DNA from: Lachnospiraceae bacterium AC2031
Lineage (GTDB): Bacteria > Bacillota > Clostridia > Lachnospirales > Lachnospiraceae
Assembly (NCBI GenBank): GCA_000687975.1
Contig: JIAB01000001.1
Coordinates: forward strand, 2,766,001 to 2,830,000
DNA: 64,000 bases
Direction: 5' to 3'
The position numbers and the translations under genes were made by a program. The stretch's first letter is position 1. Every line of letters starts with the position of its first letter. Under the pieces are notes generated by a model. It ran no database searches and was not told where the DNA came from. It saw nothing but the letters and a program-made list of their open reading frames with translations. This document shows, in pieces, positions 36,517-48,302 of the stretch.

Positions 36517-36804
36517 ATGAAACATATATATAAAGAAAATTTAGTATACAGCATTCTTGGATTGGTAGCGCTTCCTTTAGTACTTTTGTATGTAGTGCGT
36601 TTTATATTAATTGGTGGATTTATTTTTATCAGAGAAAAAGTAAATGAAGTGACAGGTAAAGAGGAGAAGAAAACGGATGGGGATAAGGATCGCGATTTTG
36701 TTTTATGGTGGATCTTTGGACCTTTTATCTTTCTTGATGATATCTGTGACAAAATATCGGGTTTGAAGGATAAGGTATTTAAAAAGAAAAATAAAAAGAA
36801 GTGA
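36517..36804 (+). CDS. Small membrane protein, paralogue A
   Basis: A 95-residue product with an N-terminal membrane helix (YSILGLVALPLVLLYVVRFILIGGFIF), a charged stretch (EKVNEVTGKEEKKTDGDKDRD), then an amphipathic or membrane segment (WWIFGPFIFLDDICDKISGLKDKV) and a Lys-rich tail. Unrecognised family. It is homologous to the 95-residue protein at 37985, sharing VTGK, a W-x-IF-x-PF segment and the GLKDKV ending. The leader before it, including a TTTTTTGTGCAAAAAA palindrome and GGAGGTAGTTAAATATG, is nearly identical to that before the second copy. Probable accessory gene whose partners are the next two genes. Confidence 0.75.
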   Translation: MKHIYKENLVYSILGLVALPLVLLYVVRFILIGGFIFIREKVNEVTGKEEKKTDGDKDRDFVLWWIFGPFIFLDDICDKISGLKDKVFKKKNKKK

Positions 36805-37984: not shown

Positions 37985-38272
37985 ATGAAAGATTCAAAAA
38001 AGTTCTCTTTAGTAAATATTATATATGGGGTTGTAGCAGAATTCGTTGTACTTCATATATTATTAGCTTGTAAATTCAGTGAGTTAATGGATCCTGTCTG
38101 GGGCTTTTTAGAGAAAGTGACAGGAAAAGATAAGGAAAGTGAGCGTATAAATATGTTTTTGTGGGGCATATTTTGGCCTTTTTTTATCAGTGTTTATATC
38201 GCTGAAAAAATAACGGGTTTGAAGGATAAAGTAACTAAAAATAAAAAGAAGAAATTGAAAAAGGACAAGTAA
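37985..38272 (+). CDS. Small membrane protein, paralogue B
   Basis: A 95-residue paralogue of the protein at 36517: N-terminal membrane helix (IIYGVVAEFVVLHILLACKF), then FLEKVTGKDKESE, MFLWGIFWPFFISVYIAEKI and GLKDKVTKNKKKK. Its leader from 37880 onward matches that of copy A, including TTGTGCAAAAAATGTTG, AATTGTAAAGAACAAAACGG and AGGTAGTTAAATATGAA. Function unknown. It is followed three bases later by a soluble gene, so the pair is likely co-translated. The duplication must be old enough for the coding parts to diverge more than the leaders, which points to selection on the leader or recent recombination there. Confidence 0.75.
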   Translation: MKDSKKFSLVNIIYGVVAEFVVLHILLACKFSELMDPVWGFLEKVTGKDKESERINMFLWGIFWPFFISVYIAEKITGLKDKVTKNKKKKLKKDK

Positions 38273-38749: not shown

Positions 38750-40387
38750 TTAGTTCGTCTTCTCATATATATTATTCAATTCCACCGTCAGTGGATCCAG
38801 TGAATTCAGATCTGAAGGCATATCGGTAATTATCGATATGATGTATGGCGCACCGTTATCTGGATAGATTATTCCACCATCGGTGGTGGCGCGGTATTTA
38901 CCTTCACAGATCCATCCAGCCTTAGACTCTGTACGATATCCAAGAGACTTAGTATTATCGGAAGTAGCAGATTCTTTATCCTGACTGTATGTTCCAAGTG
39001 TAGTATAGATTGATCCGGCAATCGGAGTAGTGTACCAGTCGCGGATCTGCATGCCGACTTCATCGGTGTTGAAGAAGTAGTAGTTATGAACCCAGAGCTT
39101 GGCGAGATTGATAGAGCTGAGCTGTGGGTAGTGATAGATAGAGACGTCACGGCTTACATGGGATGCTTCACACCAATCGCCGAAGAACTCTCGTCCGTAG
39201 TTCTTTCTGGTATTGCTGTAGATTTTGTTGTCAGAGTCACGAACGATAGCAATAAGTGAGTTTGAATTATTATCAATCATCTCAGGCTTATAGTTTACAA
39301 GGGAAGCGACATATGGTCCCTTGATACAGCTTGCAGAGTATACAGTCTTATCGTAGTTATAGGCGATGCCCTGTCCGTTATAAAGGTTTATCATTACGAA
39401 ACCACAGGTTCTGCAGTTTGGCATATCCTCTATAATAGTATTTAGTTTATTGATATCAGAAGAGTCTGGAATATAGCCGCCAATGCCGACTATCGCAGGC
39501 TCTTCTGTGTTTGTGTTAGAGTAGTTTCCGCCCTCCATAGTCTGGAGTTCGTCCAGCTGTGAGAGGATAAAGTCTTCAGTTACCAGCTTTCCGTTAGTAG
39601 CAAATGTATAATAACTACCATTTACTTTTGTGGCTCCAGTAGCTGCTACACCTTCGGAGTCGTAGTAGTATCTGTCACCAGAGATATTTAGCCATCCTAT
39701 CTTTGGAATTCCGTTCTCGTCAAGGTTGTATAGCTTATCATCGATGGTTACTTCGCCAGAAGCCAGGGTTCCATCTTGGTTTACATAAAACTTTTCACCT
39801 TTTGAATTTGTCTGCCAGCCGTCCAGAAGTTTTCCTTCACTATCGAATACAAATGTAGTGGCTTCAGGAAGCTTTTCGCCATTGAAGCTCTCTTCGAGAG
39901 AAACCTTGCCAGATTGCATTTCACCCTTAGTATTAAAGTAATACTTACTGCCATCTATTTCCTGCCAGCCTGTGAGAAGAGTGTGGTCCTCGGTAACATA
40001 TTCGCGGTGCACATCCTTCTTGTCGATAGAATCATCATTTATCTCGCTGTGGTTATCTATATCCACCCAGCCTGTCTCCAGAACACCAGAATCTGAGAAC
40101 ATATATGGAGTGCCGCTGATTTCCTGCAGTCCTGTGACAGCATATTCATCTGCGCCGAAGTAGTACCAGGATCCATCCAGAGAAAGCCATTCGCTTGCTG
40201 CATATTCCTCGTTGGATTTGATATATTTCTTTTTATTATAGTCTTCAGGGGATTCGCCATATTCCCAGGTGTTAGGTTCCTTCTTCAGGAAATTTAGATA
40301 ATAAAACTGGACAGCCCAGGAAGAGGCTGCCACGAGAATAAATATCAAGAATAAAACTAATACACTTTTTCTAAGTGTTCCCTTCAT
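38750..40387 (-). CDS. Membrane-anchored serine hydrolase (beta-lactamase/PBP-like) with cell-wall-binding repeats
   Basis: A 545-residue protein. An N-terminal membrane helix (LVLFLIFILVAASSW) anchors it outside. Residues ~60-270 hold about seven aromatic/Gly cell-wall (choline/glucan-type) binding repeats, such as WLSLDGSWYYFGADEYAVTG, GWQEIDGSKYYFNTKGEM and GWLNISGDRYYYDSEG. The C-terminal part (from ~320) resembles a class A beta-lactamase fold: SASCIKGPYV has an SxxK motif (S353, K356) and SKAGW near 497 fits the KTG strand. It may act on peptidoglycan peptides, or be an inactive relative; the SDN-type middle motif was not clearly seen. Convergent with the small-gene island; divergent from the condensin operon. 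Confidence 0.85.
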   Translation of the reverse strand: MKGTLRKSVLVLFLIFILVAASSWAVQFYYLNFLKKEPNTWEYGESPEDYNKKKYIKSNEEYAASEWLSLDGSWYYFGADEYAVTGLQEISGTPYMFSDSGVLETGWVDIDNHSEINDDSIDKKDVHREYVTEDHTLLTGWQEIDGSKYYFNTKGEMQSGKVSLEESFNGEKLPEATTFVFDSEGKLLDGWQTNSKGEKFYVNQDGTLASGEVTIDDKLYNLDENGIPKIGWLNISGDRYYYDSEGVAATGATKVNGSYYTFATNGKLVTEDFILSQLDELQTMEGGNYSNTNTEEPAIVGIGGYIPDSSDINKLNTIIEDMPNCRTCGFVMINLYNGQGIAYNYDKTVYSASCIKGPYVASLVNYKPEMIDNNSNSLIAIVRDSDNKIYSNTRKNYGREFFGDWCEASHVSRDVSIYHYPQLSSINLAKLWVHNYYFFNTDEVGMQIRDWYTTPIAGSIYTTLGTYSQDKESATSDNTKSLGYRTESKAGWICEGKYRATTDGGIIYPDNGAPYIISIITDMPSDLNSLDPLTVELNNIYEKTN

Positions 40388-40698: not shown

Positions 40699-42249
40699 AT
40701 GGCGAGCAAATATACACTAACAGATGACATTATAAAGAATCATACCGAGCGTATACTTAATCTGCGCAAATTCTACCCTTTCTTCACACTGGCCGAGGGA
40801 ACCTTCAGTCAGTATAAGGAAGGGGTTTTCAGGTTTCTGGATATGGGTTATATCACCCTCGCCGTGCTGAGATATTTTATTAATGAGAACAGCTTCAACG
40901 ACAGCCCTGTAACCTATAGCGGCTACAGCGAGTTCTGCAGGGAAATGTTATCTCGCGATTTCGACGTTACAAGAGAACGTTTCGCGAAGGATGAGATTGA
41001 CGAACTGATCCGTTACATCTTCGATAAGATGAGGAATTATGGAAAGGCATTTGAGTTTGATTTCTATGATCCAGCAGAGAGAAAGCAGAAGGTGGCACGT
41101 GTCAGACTGATTGACAGTACTGTTCGTGAGAATGAAGTTGTTTATACCATTACCGAGGATGGAATCGAGTTCTACCTTACTACGAAAGAGGTAAGAGATG
41201 AGAGCCGTATCAACATGGATCAGATCCTTCTTGAGAAACTGATCAAGTCTGAGAACTTCCGCGGTAGTATCGATGTAATAGAGAGAATAAATATAGAGGT
41301 TAAGGCTCTTGAAAAGTATAGAGAAGAGGTAGTGGAACTTCTTCTCTCAGATGTACATGAGGGAGCTAAGGCTGTAGACGAATATGTGGAGCGTACGTCT
41401 GTATGGTTTGCGGAGGAGAGAAAGTCTTTCGCAAGGAACAGAGAACTCGTCGATAAAGCAGTGGCGAGGCTTACATTTGGCTCCGATGCAGGTGATTCTA
41501 AGACAGCAAGAGATATCACAAGACTTCAGACTATGCTGAAGCAGACTATAGAGAATCACAGTAATCTGATCGCAGCGACGGCTGAGCTGTCACGCTTCTC
41601 GGATGAGATGATCCGTCGAAGCCGTGTAAGAAGTCTGAGAGCGTCCTTTGATTATGAGAGTGCGCTGAATCGTATGGTGGCTGAGGACTGTCCTCAGTGT
41701 CTGGCTGAGTTTATCGAGCCGCTGCTTCTTCCAAAGCGTCATAAGTCGCTGGCCATAAGTACCATCGACAACATAGTTCTTCAGAGGACGGCAGAGTCAC
41801 TGAAGGGTGAGGAGCGTAAGGAACTTAAGGCTGATCTTAACTTTAAGTATGATGATGAACTTCTAAATGAAAGCGTTTCCATGAACTTTGCGAAGCTCTT
41901 TAAGGAGCTTCTGGGAAGACTCCAGAGATGGGACAGAGTAACCCTGAAGGAGTATGGAGCAATCCTCGAGGTGAAGTTCGGAATGGATATATATAGGAAC
42001 CGTGACTACTATGCATTTCTTACTCATCTGGCTGGCAAGGACAGCTACAGTGTGAAGGAGATAACTGAGAATTCAGAGACATTCCTGGAAGAAATGGTAG
42101 TGTCAGGGATGACTGAGGATGAACTGGAGAGCTTCCAGGATATGGCATTTAAGATTGAGTTCGGAAATGATCTGGTAAAGATGAAGCTGGATCAGGGAAG
42201 TACGGAAGAGATTGCCGAGATAACGGATATGACATTTATCAAGATGTGA
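40699..42249 (+). CDS. MukF/JetA-like kleisin subunit of a condensin-like complex
   Basis: A ~516-residue soluble, helical protein preceding MukE-like and MukB-like genes, and by that position and its own look the kleisin. The N-terminal region (KFYPFFTLAEGTFSQYKEGVFRFLDMGYI and YSGYSEFCREML) resembles winged-helix domains of MukF/JetA-type proteins; the middle has a helical ATP-independent bundle (YREEVVELLLSDVHEGAKAV); the C-terminus is acidic. No motif is decisive. Start is uncertain: ATG 40699 is chosen because the 40591 GTG overlaps the promoter and 40648 has a weak ribosome site; the longest frame would begin at 40591. Seven bases before the next gene. Confidence 0.78.
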   Translation: MASKYTLTDDIIKNHTERILNLRKFYPFFTLAEGTFSQYKEGVFRFLDMGYITLAVLRYFINENSFNDSPVTYSGYSEFCREMLSRDFDVTRERFAKDEIDELIRYIFDKMRNYGKAFEFDFYDPAERKQKVARVRLIDSTVRENEVVYTITEDGIEFYLTTKEVRDESRINMDQILLEKLIKSENFRGSIDVIERINIEVKALEKYREEVVELLLSDVHEGAKAVDEYVERTSVWFAEERKSFARNRELVDKAVARLTFGSDAGDSKTARDITRLQTMLKQTIENHSNLIAATAELSRFSDEMIRRSRVRSLRASFDYESALNRMVAEDCPQCLAEFIEPLLLPKRHKSLAISTIDNIVLQRTAESLKGEERKELKADLNFKYDDELLNESVSMNFAKLFKELLGRLQRWDRVTLKEYGAILEVKFGMDIYRNRDYYAFLTHLAGKDSYSVKEITENSETFLEEMVVSGMTEDELESFQDMAFKIEFGNDLVKMKLDQGSTEEIAEITDMTFIKM

Positions 42250-42256
42250 GGGGAAA

Positions 42257-42991
42257 ATGGAAAAAGGTTTTGAAAAAGCTTTGGAAATATACAGTGTGCT
42301 TGCAACTGGTCAGTCCATATCCGCTAAGGATAAGGAGACAGCGGAGCTATATAACAGCTTTTACTCAGACTCTGAGGTATACGACGCTGTGACTGCACTT
42401 CTGAAGAAGCTGAATCTGAAGCTGTATGAATATAATGAATCAATCTTTGTTACTGCAGGAGCTGGTAACAAGGTCTTTGGATATACCAACGATGATCTGA
42501 AGAGAATGCTGGGTCTCAGACTGAATAAGGAACTTTATCTTGTTTACTTTATTGTATATGAGGCGCTGCTTCAGTTTTATAAGACATCGGATACCTATCA
42601 GGTTAAGGACTATATCAGACTGGATGAGCTGATCGAGGTTGTGGGTAAAGAGCTTGGACGTATCAGCAGTGATACATCGGTCTATACTCAGGACGATGTG
42701 AACGACAGCTCCTTTAAGGCGGTGGCCCTTCTTTGGGATGGACTTCCACCTATGATCTCTGAGGATAAGGACAGGAACAAGGCTTCCCGTGGTTCTAGAT
42801 ATGGATTTGCAAAGCTTACTGCGAATCTGATGAATCAGGAGGGAATCTTTACAGTAGTTGATGACAGACTGTATCCAACAGATAGATTTCATGCGATAGT
42901 TGAGAATTATTTTGAAGAGAGTGGCAGCAGTATCATGGCGAGACTTGAAGAGATTAAGAATAAGCCTGCTGATACTGAGGAGGGTGAATAG
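42257..42991 (+). CDS. MukE/JetB-like subunit of a condensin-like complex
   Basis: A 244-residue soluble protein in the MukE (JetB) position. It has an N-terminal helical part (ALEIYSVLATGQSISAKDKE), a winged-helix-like central region (FVTAGAGNKVFGYTNDDLKRML then ELYLVYFIVYEALLQFY) and a C-terminal second winged-helix-like part (RYGFAKLTANLMNQEGIFTVVDDRLYPTDRF, split by helices). MukE-type subunits bridge the kleisin to the SMC ATPase and DNA. The following ATG directly abuts this stop codon (TAGATG), so translation is coupled. GGGG ribosome site. No other annotation fits better. Confidence 0.8.
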   Translation: MEKGFEKALEIYSVLATGQSISAKDKETAELYNSFYSDSEVYDAVTALLKKLNLKLYEYNESIFVTAGAGNKVFGYTNDDLKRMLGLRLNKELYLVYFIVYEALLQFYKTSDTYQVKDYIRLDELIEVVGKELGRISSDTSVYTQDDVNDSSFKAVALLWDGLPPMISEDKDRNKASRGSRYGFAKLTANLMNQEGIFTVVDDRLYPTDRFHAIVENYFEESGSSIMARLEEIKNKPADTEEGE

Positions 42992-45900
42992 ATGCCTAGT
43001 ATCAACCGAATCAGAGTAAATAACGTAAAGTACAACTTTGGTACTCAGGGGTACGATGATTTCTCCATGAGAATGTACGGACGTAACACACTCTACGACC
43101 TGGCAAATGGTGGTGGTAAGAGTGTTCTTATGCTGCTTCTTATGCAGAATCTGATACCTAACTGTACACTGGATGACAAGCAGCCTATAGAGAAGCTGTT
43201 CCGTGATCCAAGCAATACAGTTATTCATAGTCTTATTGAGTGGAAGCTGGATGCCTGTGATATCAAGGAAGGCATGAGATATATGACTACAGGCTTTGCT
43301 GCGAGAAAGGCTGCGACTATGGAGACTGAAGGTGAAGAGGACTCCAGCCAGACAGCTCAGATCGAGTACTTTAACTACGTTATCTTCTATAGAGATTACA
43401 ATAAAAATGATATCATCAACCTTCCTCTTGTGAAGGACAACGAGCATATATCCTATAAGGCGCTCAGGAATTATCTCCATGATCTTTCCCGTAATGATAA
43501 GAATCTGTTGGTTTATATCTTTGACCGTAAGGGTGAGTATCAGAGATTTATTGCTGACTATGGACTTTATGAAAGTCACTGGGAGATCGTCAGAGGTATC
43601 AACAGAACTGAGGGTCATGTAAGAACTTACTTTGAGTCAAATTATAAGACTACACGCCGAGTTATCGAGGATCTCCTTATAGAAGAGATTATCGAGAAGG
43701 CTTATATGACAAAGACTGAGCGTGAGACAGGAAAGACAGAGAATACTGTGTCACTGCTTATGACTATTCAGGAAGAACTGAAGAGTCTTGCTGAGAAGAA
43801 GAAGGGTATTCAGACCTATGACCATGAGCAGGAGCTGGTTAAGCTTCTTGTGGATAGAATAGATTCCTTTATGGAGCTTTATAGTGAGCAGGAGGAGACT
43901 GCAAAGGCTGCAGGTCAGATCCTTGTTACTCTCAATAAAGAGAAGGAAGGAAGAGAGGCTAGACTTGAGTCTCTTAACACTCGTGTTGCCGAGGCTGAGG
44001 AACGTCTGAAGGATACCAAGGAGCTTGTTGAGATCCTGAAGATCTACCGTGACATAGAAGAGTTAGAGAAAAGAAATGAACTGATCGATGAGAAGGAAGC
44101 TACAGAGAAGAAGTTATCTGCTGATATGGAGCTTCAGGATCAGTCCTATAGATATAGATCAGCTATTCAGTCATACCTTACCCTTAAAAAGGCTAAGAGT
44201 GAACTGGATGTTCTTGTGAATGAAAAGAAGGATATGCCTAAGGGGGCATCCGATATTTATACAGTAGTTGCTAATATCAGAGACAGAATGGATACTAAGC
44301 TGGTTCAGCTTGAAGAAAAGAAGAAGCCTGTTTCTGAGAAGATTGACGCATTAAATGAAGAGCTGGCTAGTCTTGCTAAGAGCAAGGCTGAGGCAGAGAC
44401 TGAGGTTGCAGTTTTAGATAGCCGTCTTGAATATATGGAGAAGGATATCGAATCTGAAAATGCAAGCCTAAATGCTATGCAGGATGATGTTGACTATGCA
44501 CTTCTTATTGATCCTGCTGGTGCTATTAGAGAACGTTCAAAGCTTCTCAGTGATAGCGAGGATGCTTCAGTGTCACTTAGAAAGAGTCTTGAAGAGATGG
44601 AATACGAGAAGGGTGAATATCAGACTCGTATTGAGGAAGTTACTGATAGACTTCGCGAACTGGAGCTGGAAGAGAAGGCTCTTGAGAAGAAGGCTGAGGA
44701 ATATAGAGAATGTAAGGATAAGTTTAAGTCTTTATGTTCTATATATGCAGATGATGTTAAGGCATCTCCTGAGGATGTGGAGAGAAGACTTACAGACAGA
44801 CTCAGCGATACAGTGATAAATGTATATGAACTTGGAAATATTCTTAAGAAGCTTGAGGATAGAGAAAGAGATATCCGTGAGGGTAAGCTTATAGAAGAGT
44901 CTGAAGGTGTAAAGAAGGTAATGGACTACCTCTTTACAAGACAGGGTAGAAGCTCTATGCATGGTATGGATTACCTGGCTGCACTTCCGGAGGAAAAGCG
45001 AGAGGCGCTTCTAATGAAGGCGCCTGGAATAGCATTTGGCGTTGTAGTTGAGAATCTTTCTGAACTGCTGGAAGATCCAGGACTTATGGAGCTTGGACTT
45101 AATGAGGAAATATTCCTTTATGATAAGAGTCTGCTGAATGAAACATCTATCCTTCTTGGGGACGGTGTTGAGGCGGTGCGCCCTGCTAGAGAGTTCTTTA
45201 TTGATCCGAAGTTTATGGACCAGAAGCTGAGACTTCTGGGAGCGGATCTTGATAATAGACAGGAGGAGCTCAGAAATAGTGAGGTGATCCTGGAGACGCT
45301 GAGAGAGGATCTGGATTTTGTTAAGCTGTTCCGTGAGAAGGGACTTCTGTATGCCGAGGCTGAGTATGCTGAGGCAAAGGAAAAGAGTAAAGAAAGATCT
45401 ATGGAGCTGACTAAGCTTAGAGAGAAGCTGAGTACTCTTGAGCGCCGAATTAATGAGACAGAGGGTGAGCTTCTTGATACGGAAAATGCTATCAAGAGAT
45501 ATCATGCTGAACTGATCAGCCTTAATAACGTGGTTTCACTTCAGGACCGTATATCACAGCTGAGTGCTGCAAAGGACCGCCTTAAGAAGGAAAAAAAGGA
45601 ACTGCAGGGCAGGATTGAGCAGGTGGTATCAGCTACCAGAACGAAAGAGCTTAGTCTTCTCGAGTCAAATGCTGAGATAGAGAGTATTGAAAAGGAGAAG
45701 CTGAGCCTCGAGCATAGATGGGAAAATAAGTACGTTGTTTACTACAACGAGACTACTGCATATCCAAGACTGGAAATGGAAGAGAACGAGCTGGAACGTG
45801 CTTTTGAAGTAGCTCTTGGTGGAGTGTCTGAAAGCAGAATGGCTATGGAAAAGGAGAAGCTTCTTCAGGATACACTTGCCAGCACGATAGAGCGTGAGAC

Positions 45901-47398
45901 TAAGGCTATAGAAAAGCTGGGAGTTGATATATCACTTCTTGTCGAAACAGATAAGAAGGAAGGACTTAGTGCAGCAAGCGAAGAAGTTCTTGATGCTATG
46001 AAGTCTGAGCTTGAGAGACTCCGCAGTGAGAGACTTAGTATCGAAAAAGAACTAAGTACTATAAGAACAGAGAAGGCCAGAGTTGAAGGTAGTATTGAGT
46101 ATGCTAGAGAACGTCTTGGCCAGGAGTTTGGTGAGGCAGCTCTCGTAAGACTTTCTGAAACAAAGGATATTCAGGACAGCCAGAAACTTCTTGAAGATAC
46201 AATACTTATAAATAAGCAGCAGAGACAGGAACTTGATAAGGTAAGGGCTGAGCTTAAGACTGCTGAGGGACAGGCTAGAGGAAACGATGACCTGATCCGT
46301 CTTGCTACAAGAATTGTAGAGGCAAATGCAATCGAGATTTCAGGTCTTGAACCGCTTGAAAGTTCTGATGGACTTGATGATAAGTTTGATGGATATATTT
46401 CAAGATACGACAAGTTATCTAAGGATATAGACAGAGCCAAGGCAGATATGCTGAAGGTTAAGATGAGCGTTTATGAGACTCTCAGCAATATGGGAGTAAA
46501 TGAGCTTGCTATGTCCATAAGGGATGATGTTGTTATCCCAGAAAATAAGGTGGAGGCTGAGAAGCTGCTATCTCGACTGGGTGATGTTATCAGTATCATT
46601 TCCCTTGAGAGAGACAGAGTTGAGAAGACTCTTGTCAGCATGCAGCAGCTTAAGGACAGTTTCGTAGATCAGTGTGTAGAGCGTTGTCTGGATGTTCGTT
46701 CTGAACTGGATAAGCTGACAAAGCTTTCTGAGATTTCTATGGGCGACACTAAGGTTCAGATGATACGACTTACGATTCCTTATGTGAAGGATGAGTTCAT
46801 TAAGGATCGTATGTCTGATTATATCGATCAGATAGTTGAAGAGGTTGATAAGAAGGAAAGCGATGCAGAGAGACAGAGATTCCTTGGCAGCAGTCTTGCT
46901 ATGAAGAAGCTGTTCTCAGTCATCGTTACTGATATGTCCAAGATCAAGCTTCTTCTGTATAAGCGTGAGAGGATTAAGGAGCAGAGCCGTTATCTCAGAT
47001 ACGAAGAGGCGGTTGGTAGTACAGGTCAGTCCCAGGGTATCTACATACAGTTCCTGATTTCGATAATCAATTATATTGCTGGTATGTACGCAGTTGCGGA
47101 CAGCACCACCAGGTCGAAAACCTTATTTATTGATAACCCATTTGGAGCGGCAAAGGATATCTATATCTGGGAGCCAATCTTTACGCTGCTGGCTGAGAAC
47201 TCATGTCAGCTGATAGTTCCTGCCAGAGGAGCAACGCCTGAGATTACAGGACGCTTCGATATTAACTACGTGCTGGGACAGCAGATGACTGGTGACAGAA
47301 CTACAACAGTTGTTGTGAACTACAGCAGTAAGACTAAGGGCGAGGAACTCGAATACCGCGACCTTGATTATCAGCAGCAGACATTTGACTTTATATAG
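42992..47398 (+). CDS. MukB/JetC-like SMC ATPase of a condensin-like complex
   Basis: The 1468-residue protein has an N-terminal ATPase segment with Walker A LANGGGKSVLM (K43, S44), a very long coiled coil (about residues 280-650 and 780-1180, with a globular hinge-like part near 640-770), and a C-terminal segment with a signature-like GSTGQSQGIYIQFL near 1345 and Walker B LFIDNPF (D1381, then N1382 where classical SMC/Rad50 proteins have Glu). MukB, MksB and JetC share this plan. It probably forms a DNA-loop-extruding ATPase with the two preceding gene products, protecting against plasmids or structuring the chromosome. No toprim nuclease (JetD) gene is next to it. Confidence 0.88.
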   Translation: MPSINRIRVNNVKYNFGTQGYDDFSMRMYGRNTLYDLANGGGKSVLMLLLMQNLIPNCTLDDKQPIEKLFRDPSNTVIHSLIEWKLDACDIKEGMRYMTTGFAARKAATMETEGEEDSSQTAQIEYFNYVIFYRDYNKNDIINLPLVKDNEHISYKALRNYLHDLSRNDKNLLVYIFDRKGEYQRFIADYGLYESHWEIVRGINRTEGHVRTYFESNYKTTRRVIEDLLIEEIIEKAYMTKTERETGKTENTVSLLMTIQEELKSLAEKKKGIQTYDHEQELVKLLVDRIDSFMELYSEQEETAKAAGQILVTLNKEKEGREARLESLNTRVAEAEERLKDTKELVEILKIYRDIEELEKRNELIDEKEATEKKLSADMELQDQSYRYRSAIQSYLTLKKAKSELDVLVNEKKDMPKGASDIYTVVANIRDRMDTKLVQLEEKKKPVSEKIDALNEELASLAKSKAEAETEVAVLDSRLEYMEKDIESENASLNAMQDDVDYALLIDPAGAIRERSKLLSDSEDASVSLRKSLEEMEYEKGEYQTRIEEVTDRLRELELEEKALEKKAEEYRECKDKFKSLCSIYADDVKASPEDVERRLTDRLSDTVINVYELGNILKKLEDRERDIREGKLIEESEGVKKVMDYLFTRQGRSSMHGMDYLAALPEEKREALLMKAPGIAFGVVVENLSELLEDPGLMELGLNEEIFLYDKSLLNETSILLGDGVEAVRPAREFFIDPKFMDQKLRLLGADLDNRQEELRNSEVILETLREDLDFVKLFREKGLLYAEAEYAEAKEKSKERSMELTKLREKLSTLERRINETEGELLDTENAIKRYHAELISLNNVVSLQDRISQLSAAKDRLKKEKKELQGRIEQVVSATRTKELSLLESNAEIESIEKEKLSLEHRWENKYVVYYNETTAYPRLEMEENELERAFEVALGGVSESRMAMEKEKLLQDTLASTIERETKAIEKLGVDISLLVETDKKEGLSAASEEVLDAMKSELERLRSERLSIEKELSTIRTEKARVEGSIEYARERLGQEFGEAALVRLSETKDIQDSQKLLEDTILINKQQRQELDKVRAELKTAEGQARGNDDLIRLATRIVEANAIEISGLEPLESSDGLDDKFDGYISRYDKLSKDIDRAKADMLKVKMSVYETLSNMGVNELAMSIRDDVVIPENKVEAEKLLSRLGDVISIISLERDRVEKTLVSMQQLKDSFVDQCVERCLDVRSELDKLTKLSEISMGDTKVQMIRLTIPYVKDEFIKDRMSDYIDQIVEEVDKKESDAERQRFLGSSLAMKKLFSVIVTDMSKIKLLLYKRERIKEQSRYLRYEEAVGSTGQSQGIYIQFLISIINYIAGMYAVADSTTRSKTLFIDNPFGAAKDIYIWEPIFTLLAENSCQLIVPARGATPEITGRFDINYVLGQQMTGDRTTTVVVNYSSKTKGEELEYRDLDYQQQTFDFI

Positions 47399-47441
47399 AG
47401 TTATATAGGACATCTTCGTTAAAGGAATAATAAGACAATAA

Positions 47442-48302
47442 ATGTATAAGATAGAAAGCAAAAATATACTCACTCCTCAGAATGGACTGAATATATATCG
47501 TGGAAGGACAGAAGACTGCATATTACTTACTGAGATACCTGGGGGTGACTCCATGGATATCGGAGTTAAGACAGATGCGGCAGATCAGCTGGACTCGGTT
47601 CTTAAGTCCAGAAGGAGTAAGAGTATAATACTTATGGGTAATCTTGGTGACCCATATAATAAATATGAGGAAGAGTACTGCCTCACAAGAAAGTGTCTTA
47701 AGGTTATAGAGAATAATGACTACGGAGTTGTGATAACAACCAAGCAGTCTAGGATCTTACGTGATCTGGATATACTGACTGGAATCGCAAGCAAGACTAA
47801 ATGTGCGGTGGAAATCAGTATCCCAACCCTTGATGAAAAGAAGCTTAAAAAGATCGAGGGTGAAGAGGTTATATCTATTAAGGAAAGGCTTGAACTGATC
47901 GAGACTCTTAGAGGGGCTGGGATCAGTATTCTTATACAGCTGTCGCCGGTGATCCCATTTGTCAATGACTACGAAGTTATGGAGATTCTGGAGACACTTG
48001 CAAAGTATGATATACTAGGAGTTGACCTTGCTGACCTGAGACTTGCAATAAAGAAGTCGGTGAGAGATTTCTTCTATATGGAATATAAAAAGAGATTTCC
48101 AAAGGAATATAAAGAATTCGCAGAAGAGTATTCTGGTGAACCTGGAGAGCTTACTCCAAGGGATTACAAGAAGCTTCTGAAGGAAAGTCAGGAGTTCTGC
48201 GAGGAGCGGGGAATCATCTCAAGTAGTAGCAGAATTAAGTCGTGGAAGCGACAGTATGAAAATAAAACTGAAGGCGAACAGCTTTCATTAGAATTATTCT
48301 AG
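47442..48302 (+). CDS. Spore photoproduct lyase-like protein with degenerate radical SAM site
   Basis: A 286-residue protein matching SplB-type radical SAM proteins in order: NGLNIYRGRTEDCILLTE (where active homologues have NPYRGC-x3-C-x2-C), DIGVKTDAADQLDSVL, then ILMGNLGDPYNKYEEEYCLT (family GxxTDPYQPxE), TRKCLKVIE, VVITTKQSRILRDLDILT and GISILIQLSPVIPFVND. Of three cluster cysteines only Cys26 remains; the first is Arg22 and the third Leu29, so a normal 4Fe-4S/SAM site is absent. The function must differ from lesion repair and may be DNA binding or structural. 43 bp after the SMC gene, and 12 bp before the malic enzyme gene, so it is probably in the condensin transcript. Weak ribosome site. 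Confidence 0.72.
   Translation: MYKIESKNILTPQNGLNIYRGRTEDCILLTEIPGGDSMDIGVKTDAADQLDSVLKSRRSKSIILMGNLGDPYNKYEEEYCLTRKCLKVIENNDYGVVITTKQSRILRDLDILTGIASKTKCAVEISIPTLDEKKLKKIEGEEVISIKERLELIETLRGAGISILIQLSPVIPFVNDYEVMEILETLAKYDILGVDLADLRLAIKKSVRDFFYMEYKKRFPKEYKEFAEEYSGEPGELTPRDYKKLLKESQEFCEERGIISSSSRIKSWKRQYENKTEGEQLSLELF

Follow-up and report, generated by a model that had tools for sequence, protein, structure and literature searches.

What becomes of a Wadjet system that has no nuclease, and what is the protein encoded directly behind it? Both questions are raised by a stretch of 64,000 nucleotides from Lachnospiraceae bacterium AC2031 (contig JIAB01000001.1, positions 2,766,001 to 2,830,000; hereafter the window, in whose coordinates features are given), where jetA, jetB and jetC are followed by a gene, here called S, for a protein resembling spore photoproduct lyase (SPL). 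As described in part of PMC10586767, Wadjet JetABC gives shape and size sensing, and JetD cuts DNA. We tentatively read JetABC of the window as a Wadjet-derived, JetD-less, non-cutting accessory condensin beside Smc–ScpAB, with S as a probable non-catalytic adaptor. Readings of S as adaptor and as bystander are about equal in probability.

A type III JetABC locus without JetD

The three condensin genes are of the type III Wadjet kind, as judged from full-length matches to PADLOC type III models. The kleisin-like JetA3 (516 aa; 40699..42249, plus strand) matched PDLC00560 over residues 1-515 with 595.5 bits, and the MukE/KITE-like JetB3 (DUF6063, 244 aa; 42257..42991, plus strand) matched PDLC00571 with 283 bits, as well as PF19539. 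JetC3, the ATPase of the structural maintenance of chromosomes (SMC) type (1468 aa; 42992..47398, plus strand), matched PDLC00581 with 1494 bits over residues 1-1468. Its Walker A region, NGGGKS (43106..43123, plus strand), lies in a stretch, YDLANGGGKSVLML, that is identical across the 28 S-linked rows. An earlier note, made from the sequence alone, had described packed kleisin-, MukE- and SMC-like genes and then a SplB-like gene at 40699-48302, and this arrangement was confirmed as JetA3, JetB3, JetC3 and S.

The absence of JetD, which that note had also reported, is well supported. Pfam JetD_C (PF09983) had zero matches in the window's own genome (G000). A JetD3 profile made from ten JetD3 proteins was searched in 24 genomes, six of them JetD-bearing controls. 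It gave strong matches in all six controls, including two (G551 and G485) that had not supplied profile rows as the other four had (G342, G039, G309 and G398). Among the 18 other genomes, which carry JetD-less JetABC, 13 returned nothing, the window's own included; matches in the remaining five were weak (E 5e-7 to 5e-4 in G457, G002 and G010; E 0.04 and 0.19 in G512 and G325). A JetD hidden elsewhere in the window's genome was rejected, since neither Pfam JetD_C nor the JetD3 profile found one. The DNA-cutting subunit of Wadjet is thus missing at this locus.

JetD_C proteins do occur elsewhere in the genus of the window, which was sampled with 37 genomes. Matches over the cut-off were found in four (G002, G010, G012 and G035). 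In G002 the match is part of a type I Wadjet that stands apart (JetB1, JetC1 and JetD1; L080:487-5606), as is the weak match to the JetD3 profile. In G010 (L079:4583-6883), a JetD_C protein is preceded by a 1071-aa open reading frame (ORF) and followed, about 110 bases on, by the cysteine-bearing SPL-like gene; the JetD_C loci of G002, G012 and G035 do not show this arrangement.

The JetD-less complexes do not look like decaying remnants, a possibility rejected on two grounds. The three JetC ATPase motifs (Walker A, GQSQG and DNPFG) hardly differ when JetD-less proteins are compared with two that have JetD at their locus, and the ratio of non-synonymous to synonymous substitution rates (dN/dS) is 0.03-0.06 for JetABC overall, with 0.064 and 0.055 for JetC against two close relatives. 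With kleisin, KITE and SMC subunits, kept ATPase motifs and no nuclease gene, JetABC has the make-up of an MksBEF-like (JetD-less) condensin. ScpA was found in 22 of the 22 genomes tested, so JetABC, where present, is a second condensin in the same cells. On plasmids, JetC had a single weak match covering 15% of the query.

The absence of JetD extends beyond the window's genus. Among 397 Lachnospiraceae genomes, 50 from 41 genera had a JetC match of at least 990 bits, and the profile found no JetD at any of the 46 loci whose sequence reaches 1.2 kb or more upstream of JetA. Five further JetC loci, at 174-190 bits, belong to other branches and have JetD_C within a few kb of JetC in every case; at four of the five (L208, L209, L210 and L168, the last from G398) JetD is the gene immediately preceding JetA. 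Across the whole set of examined loci with this much upstream sequence, JetD was present in 12 of 78. A JetC tree of 89 proteins (quick method, midpoint root; JetCs below 1300 aa, L069, L070, L073, L170 and L206, left out) placed 75 JetD-less rows in one group (SH-aLRT 99), with the JetD-bearing pair G039 and G342 as its sister (97 for the joint group); long branches make the deeper forks unsure. This JetD-less group holds 48 of the 50 family JetCs, from 39 genera. G520 was too short for the tree, and G502 (L207), whose jetA is not visible on the contig, fell outside the group. By profile, L164 (G152) and L170 (G184) are also JetD-less, being outside the group or too short. The simplest reading of this tree is that JetD was lost at the base of the 75-row group, and a single loss seems likely. 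The earlier note's suggestion that S had replaced JetD was not borne out: the loss looks older and wider than the pairing with S, which stands beside JetC in 5 of the 50 family genomes, and a different protein, X, is encoded near jetC in 36.

S, a degenerate member of the spore photoproduct lyase fold

S (286 aa; 47442..48302, plus strand) is a degenerate radical S-adenosylmethionine (SAM) protein, assigned from a fold match, a motif alignment and its adjacency to JetC. It has an SPL-like barrel, as judged from matches to the spore photoproduct lyase fold. Matches to the NCBIfam models for PA0069 and Rv2578c were partial, at 115.6 and 83.1 bits against cut-offs of 360 and 430. NCBIfam photo_TT_lyase (TIGR04070) was absent from its matches up to E 0.01, and even the canonical paralogue reached only 19.7 bits against a cut-off of 400. 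Family profile searches gave no nuclease or toprim match for S, and no relatives were found in the PDB by sequence profile. Two unannotated contigs from human faeces labelled as phage (MT838272.1 and MT835833.1) encode S relatives with 33% and 26% identity.

The earlier note had called the SplB-like protein degenerate, and the iron-sulfur loop bears this out. Alignment pairs YRGCTHGCIYCD of the canonical paralogue with YRGRTEDCILLT of the window's S (47496..47531, plus strand). The cluster motif CxxxCxxC is absent from all 45 genus copies counted, 41 linked to JetC and four solitary; all 16 canonical copies encoded elsewhere have it, as do all three JetC-adjacent copies from other genera (L159, L181 and L191) and one of two uncertain copies (L133 and L143). 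The 41 linked copies comprise 28 from genus genomes and 13 from a 52-locus sample, with the truncated G031 copy (L095) left out. For the canonical set of 16, the genus supplied 12, a subset of the second copies listed there, and other families four. The 19 canonical and intact rows share 85 conserved columns. The degenerate rows have lost 16 of these, eight of which fall in the cluster loop and right behind it, and they keep 23 at 90% or more, including G-x-x-x-DPY, D108, D110 and the C-terminal Gln.

Without the cluster cysteines S is, by its sequence, a pseudoenzyme; it is not a decaying gene. Its dN/dS of 0.049 and 0.042 against two close relatives is similar to that of JetC; these ratios are rough, because at dS 1.9 and 2.6 synonymous sites are near saturation. 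A recent pseudogene was rejected on the strength of these low ratios at high dS and of genus matches without internal stops. In the three other genera, no close SPL-like gene besides the JetC-adjacent copy was found in the genome (E up to 1e-8), and none besides the cysteine-less S in G008 and G023. A C-terminal linker, Y-x-N-[KRHQ]-[TQ]-x-G-x-Q, marks the degenerate and the intact adjacent copies as one group: it occurs in 45 of 45 and 3 of 3, respectively, in one of the two uncertain copies and in none of the 16 distant ones.

Since the JetC-adjacent S of three other genera keeps CxxxCxxC, the degenerate state looks later than the pairing with JetC. The copies together form a putative series from enzyme to pseudoenzyme, from cysteine-bearing S beside jetC in those genera to cysteine-less S in the window's genus. 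A midpoint-rooted S tree with long branches was rejected as proof of a single cysteine loss, because it places the degenerate JetC-linked copies in two places; in the JetC tree, the genus is one clade.

The window's S ends in QLSLELF (48279..48299, plus strand), with an invariant Gln. According to part of PMC9690074, the beta-clamp binding motif of bacteria is a C-terminal QL(S/D)LF, which may vary. Tails of relatives include QLSLF, QMTLF, QLSFF, QMTFDF and similar endings, and the Gln is kept in 45 of 45 degenerate rows and in at least 94% of the 19 canonical and intact rows. A loose clamp-like pattern fits 32 of the 41 copies linked to JetC, all 4 solitary ones, 1 of the 3 intact copies beside JetC and 15 of the 16 canonical ones; among background ORFs it fits 9 of 577. 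The tight pattern Q[LM][SDT][LIF]F fits 17 of 41, 0 of 4, 1 of 3 and 15 of 16, respectively, and the window's tail fits the loose pattern only. In the structure model the tail is the least confident part, and we treat it as a candidate, a resemblance to the clamp-binding consensus only.

Neighbours of jetC within the genus and across the family

A strong JetC match was present in 31 of the 37 genus genomes. The contig runs past jetC in 28 of these and is cut at its end in G013, G018 and G031. S lies directly downstream in all 28 testable genomes, with S identity falling to 33% across them, so that chance adjacency was rejected for the genus; in L067 and L057, S was placed by tblastn coordinates. 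The six genomes without a strong match are G003, G008, G009, G012, G023 and G030, of which G009 and G030 are only 75 and 85% complete. The check proposed in the earlier note, co-occurrence and gene order of the SplB-like and condensin genes across Lachnospiraceae, thus came out in two ways: within the genus S is a conserved fourth gene, and in the family at large it is mostly not found at the locus. Of the 50 family genomes, 45 lack S at the jetC locus, and in one of these (G520) the contig ends inside jetC.

At 21 of the 26 genus loci measured by ORF, the gap between jetC and S was -1 to 60 nt; for the three genera with intact-cysteine S it was 10-26 nt. On the other side of S, the distance to the next conserved gene, a malic enzyme gene, ranges from 2 to 373 nt in the genus and up to 1006 nt outside it, and can contain other genes. 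Mirror correlations were computed for the 11 of 31 loci at which all six genes were labelled and long enough. With the malic enzyme and Bmp-like (bmp) genes controlled, the S–JetC correlation was 0.60, similar to the 0.60 of JetA–JetC.

Elsewhere in the family, JetABC has other neighbours. At 20 of the 50 family loci (L151, L153, L154 and L171 among them) jetABC follows recR, separated from it by 0 to 3 ORFs, and L152 from the order sample brings the recR-linked loci to 21. The order dnaX-ybaB-recR is in view at 19 of the 20; the L194 stretch shows ybaB-recR only. At 20 such loci, JetC distances track those of dnaX (r 0.68) and recR (r 0.63), with 0.46 for recR-dnaX and 0 of 500 permutations as high. 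JetC inheritance therefore looks mainly vertical. Together, housekeeping linkage and vertical inheritance of sister loci point, only indirectly, to a possible role of JetABC in chromosome organisation.

Protein X was found at 37 of the 60 loci L151-L210 (for example L151:12797-15883) and is the next same-strand gene after jetC at 30 of them. It has a TPR-like N-terminus, a long acidic linker and a weak C-terminal match to SpoVK/CbbX-like AAA proteins; two copies scanned gave no Pfam match over the cut-off. A linker motif resembling I-x-G-Q-[LM]-[SDT]-[LI] was retrieved by pattern in 18 of the 37, one out of register. Twenty X loci are downstream of recR, with the clamp-loader gene dnaX in view at 19. 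X and S are unrelated, and both carry a similar short Q[LM] motif: C-terminal G-x-Q[LM] in S and I-x-GQ[LM][SDT][LI] in the linker of X.

Scans for regulatory sites gave 15 promoter-like sites against 18.7 expected, and seven terminator-like sites against 5.0, none of them in the jetC–S or S–malic enzyme gaps. Upstream of jetA, the window encodes a choline-binding-repeat protein (38750-40387, minus strand) with a beta-lactamase-like match just below the cut-off, and its relatives occur near jetA at several genus loci. Further upstream, at 36517-36804 and 37985-38272, are two 95-aa proteins without a Pfam match, similar to each other by eye, each with a hydrophobic N-terminus and a lysine-rich tail.

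Adaptor, bystander or something else

How might such a complex work? Having lost JetD, JetABC would act as a second SMC complex on the chromosome without cutting, and may fold DNA or move along it. The conserved barrel of S may recognise DNA or a partner, and its Q[LM]-x-[hydrophobic] tail may bind the sliding clamp, DnaN; S would then connect JetABC, as loop extruder, with DNA that is damaged or has just been replicated. We infer chromosomal function, physical contact between S and JetABC, and clamp binding from the kept genes and motifs described above, which suggest that a plasmid-destroying defence system has turned into a chromosome-care machine. The more ambitious version, in which the former plasmid cutter is a replisome-coupled loop extruder brought to the clamp by its fourth protein, seems to us unlikely, for all that S and X share a Q[LM] motif.

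A conserved link between S and JetC is favoured by the short gap, the 28/28 adjacency and the subunit-like mirror correlation. Several observations weigh against the adaptor role. S is kept without JetABC in 4 of the 37 genus genomes: in G008, G012 and G023 it lies upstream of the malic enzyme gene as in the window, and in G003 it is on a 4.5 kb contig with other neighbours. One solitary pair gave a dN/dS of 0.032 at dS 2.07 (two other pairs were saturated); as S is under purifying selection there, it must have some JetABC-independent role. The malic enzyme and Bmp-like genes are nearly as syntenic as S in the genus, partial mirror correlation is also seen for S–bmp (0.37) and JetC–bmp (0.43), and S stands beside JetC in so few family genomes. 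Nine of the 41 JetC-linked genus copies and two of the three intact-cysteine adjacent copies lack the loose tail; it is also present in the canonical paralogue, and therefore need not serve JetABC. A further point against this reading is that 13 of the 50 family genomes encode a JetD_C protein on another contig. Solitary S, the 45 family loci without S and the synteny of the malic enzyme gene speak against an obligatory link.

These same facts lend weight to a reading that we hold just as tentatively, namely that JetABC is a JetD-less accessory condensin and S an SPL-like syntenic neighbour, long fixed between jetC and the malic enzyme gene, a pseudoenzyme with a role of its own. In favour of such a bystander, S stays in place and under selection where JetABC is gone, the malic enzyme gene is nearly as syntenic, and only 5 of the 50 family genomes with this JetC have S next to it. 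The bystander reading fits less well with a jetC–S gap that is short at most loci while the S–malic enzyme gap varies, with adjacency that persists as S identity drops to a third, and with a mirror correlation as high as that between JetA and JetC in the 11 loci compared.

Other roles for S are much less probable. A lesion-sensing loader would build on the lesion-recognising role put forward in the earlier note: the SPL-like barrel would detect lesions such as thymine dimers and bring JetABC to them. This idea draws on the fold match, the 23 kept columns and the recR linkage of sister loci. A DNA-binding or lesion-recognising role would be compatible with the modelled fold, but the matched NCBIfam models name no substrate and the isoelectric point of 5.3 gives no hint of non-specific DNA binding; we regard this loader as very unlikely. 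We give little credence to S as an effector in the part of JetD, its barrel re-purposed for some new activity on the DNA that JetABC loops. Its place as fourth gene and conserved downstream partner in the genus would suit that part, but S has lost the cluster site and matched no nuclease or toprim family, the JetD-less state is wider than the S–JetC pairing, and S outlives JetABC in one lineage. Least probable of all is that JetABC remains a defence system and borrows a nuclease in trans, such as the JetD of another Wadjet in the genome. The JetD_C proteins of 13 family and four genus genomes could supply one, but the window's own genome and 37 of the 50 family genomes have none, and vertical inheritance with housekeeping neighbours is unlike a defence island.

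In the open-access literature we found neither a JetD-less type III Wadjet described from Lachnospiraceae nor a radical-SAM partner described for Wadjet, in agreement with the earlier note, which knew of no such pairing. How SMC machines shift between defence and chromosome care is an open question, for which Lachnospiraceae JetABC would be a second detailed case after Pseudomonas MksBEF, and annotation of such JetD-less loci as Wadjet defence may mislead. If S or X does link JetABC to the sliding clamp, this would be a bacterial parallel to replication-coupled SMC loading. CrfC of E. coli, as described in part of PMC6374313, is likewise a chromosome-partition factor with a clamp-binding motif, but it is dynamin-like and its localisation is regulated basically independently of that of MukB. 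S shares its fold and partial model matches with spore photoproduct lyase and the PA0069-Rv2578c radical-SAM proteins, but lacks the cluster cysteines and scores far below the curated cut-offs. Type III Wadjet (JetABCD) has the same JetA3, JetB3 and JetC3, matched here over their full length, and differs in having JetD. The MksBEF/MukBEF condensins are likewise three-subunit kleisin-KITE-SMC complexes without a nuclease; loss of JetD has been suggested, in part of PMC10586767, as the history of Pseudomonas MksBEF. The window's system differs from these in belonging to a Lachnospiraceae group of the type III branch that lacks JetD, in which S or X is a neighbour gene and sister lineages show dnaX-ybaB-recR linkage.

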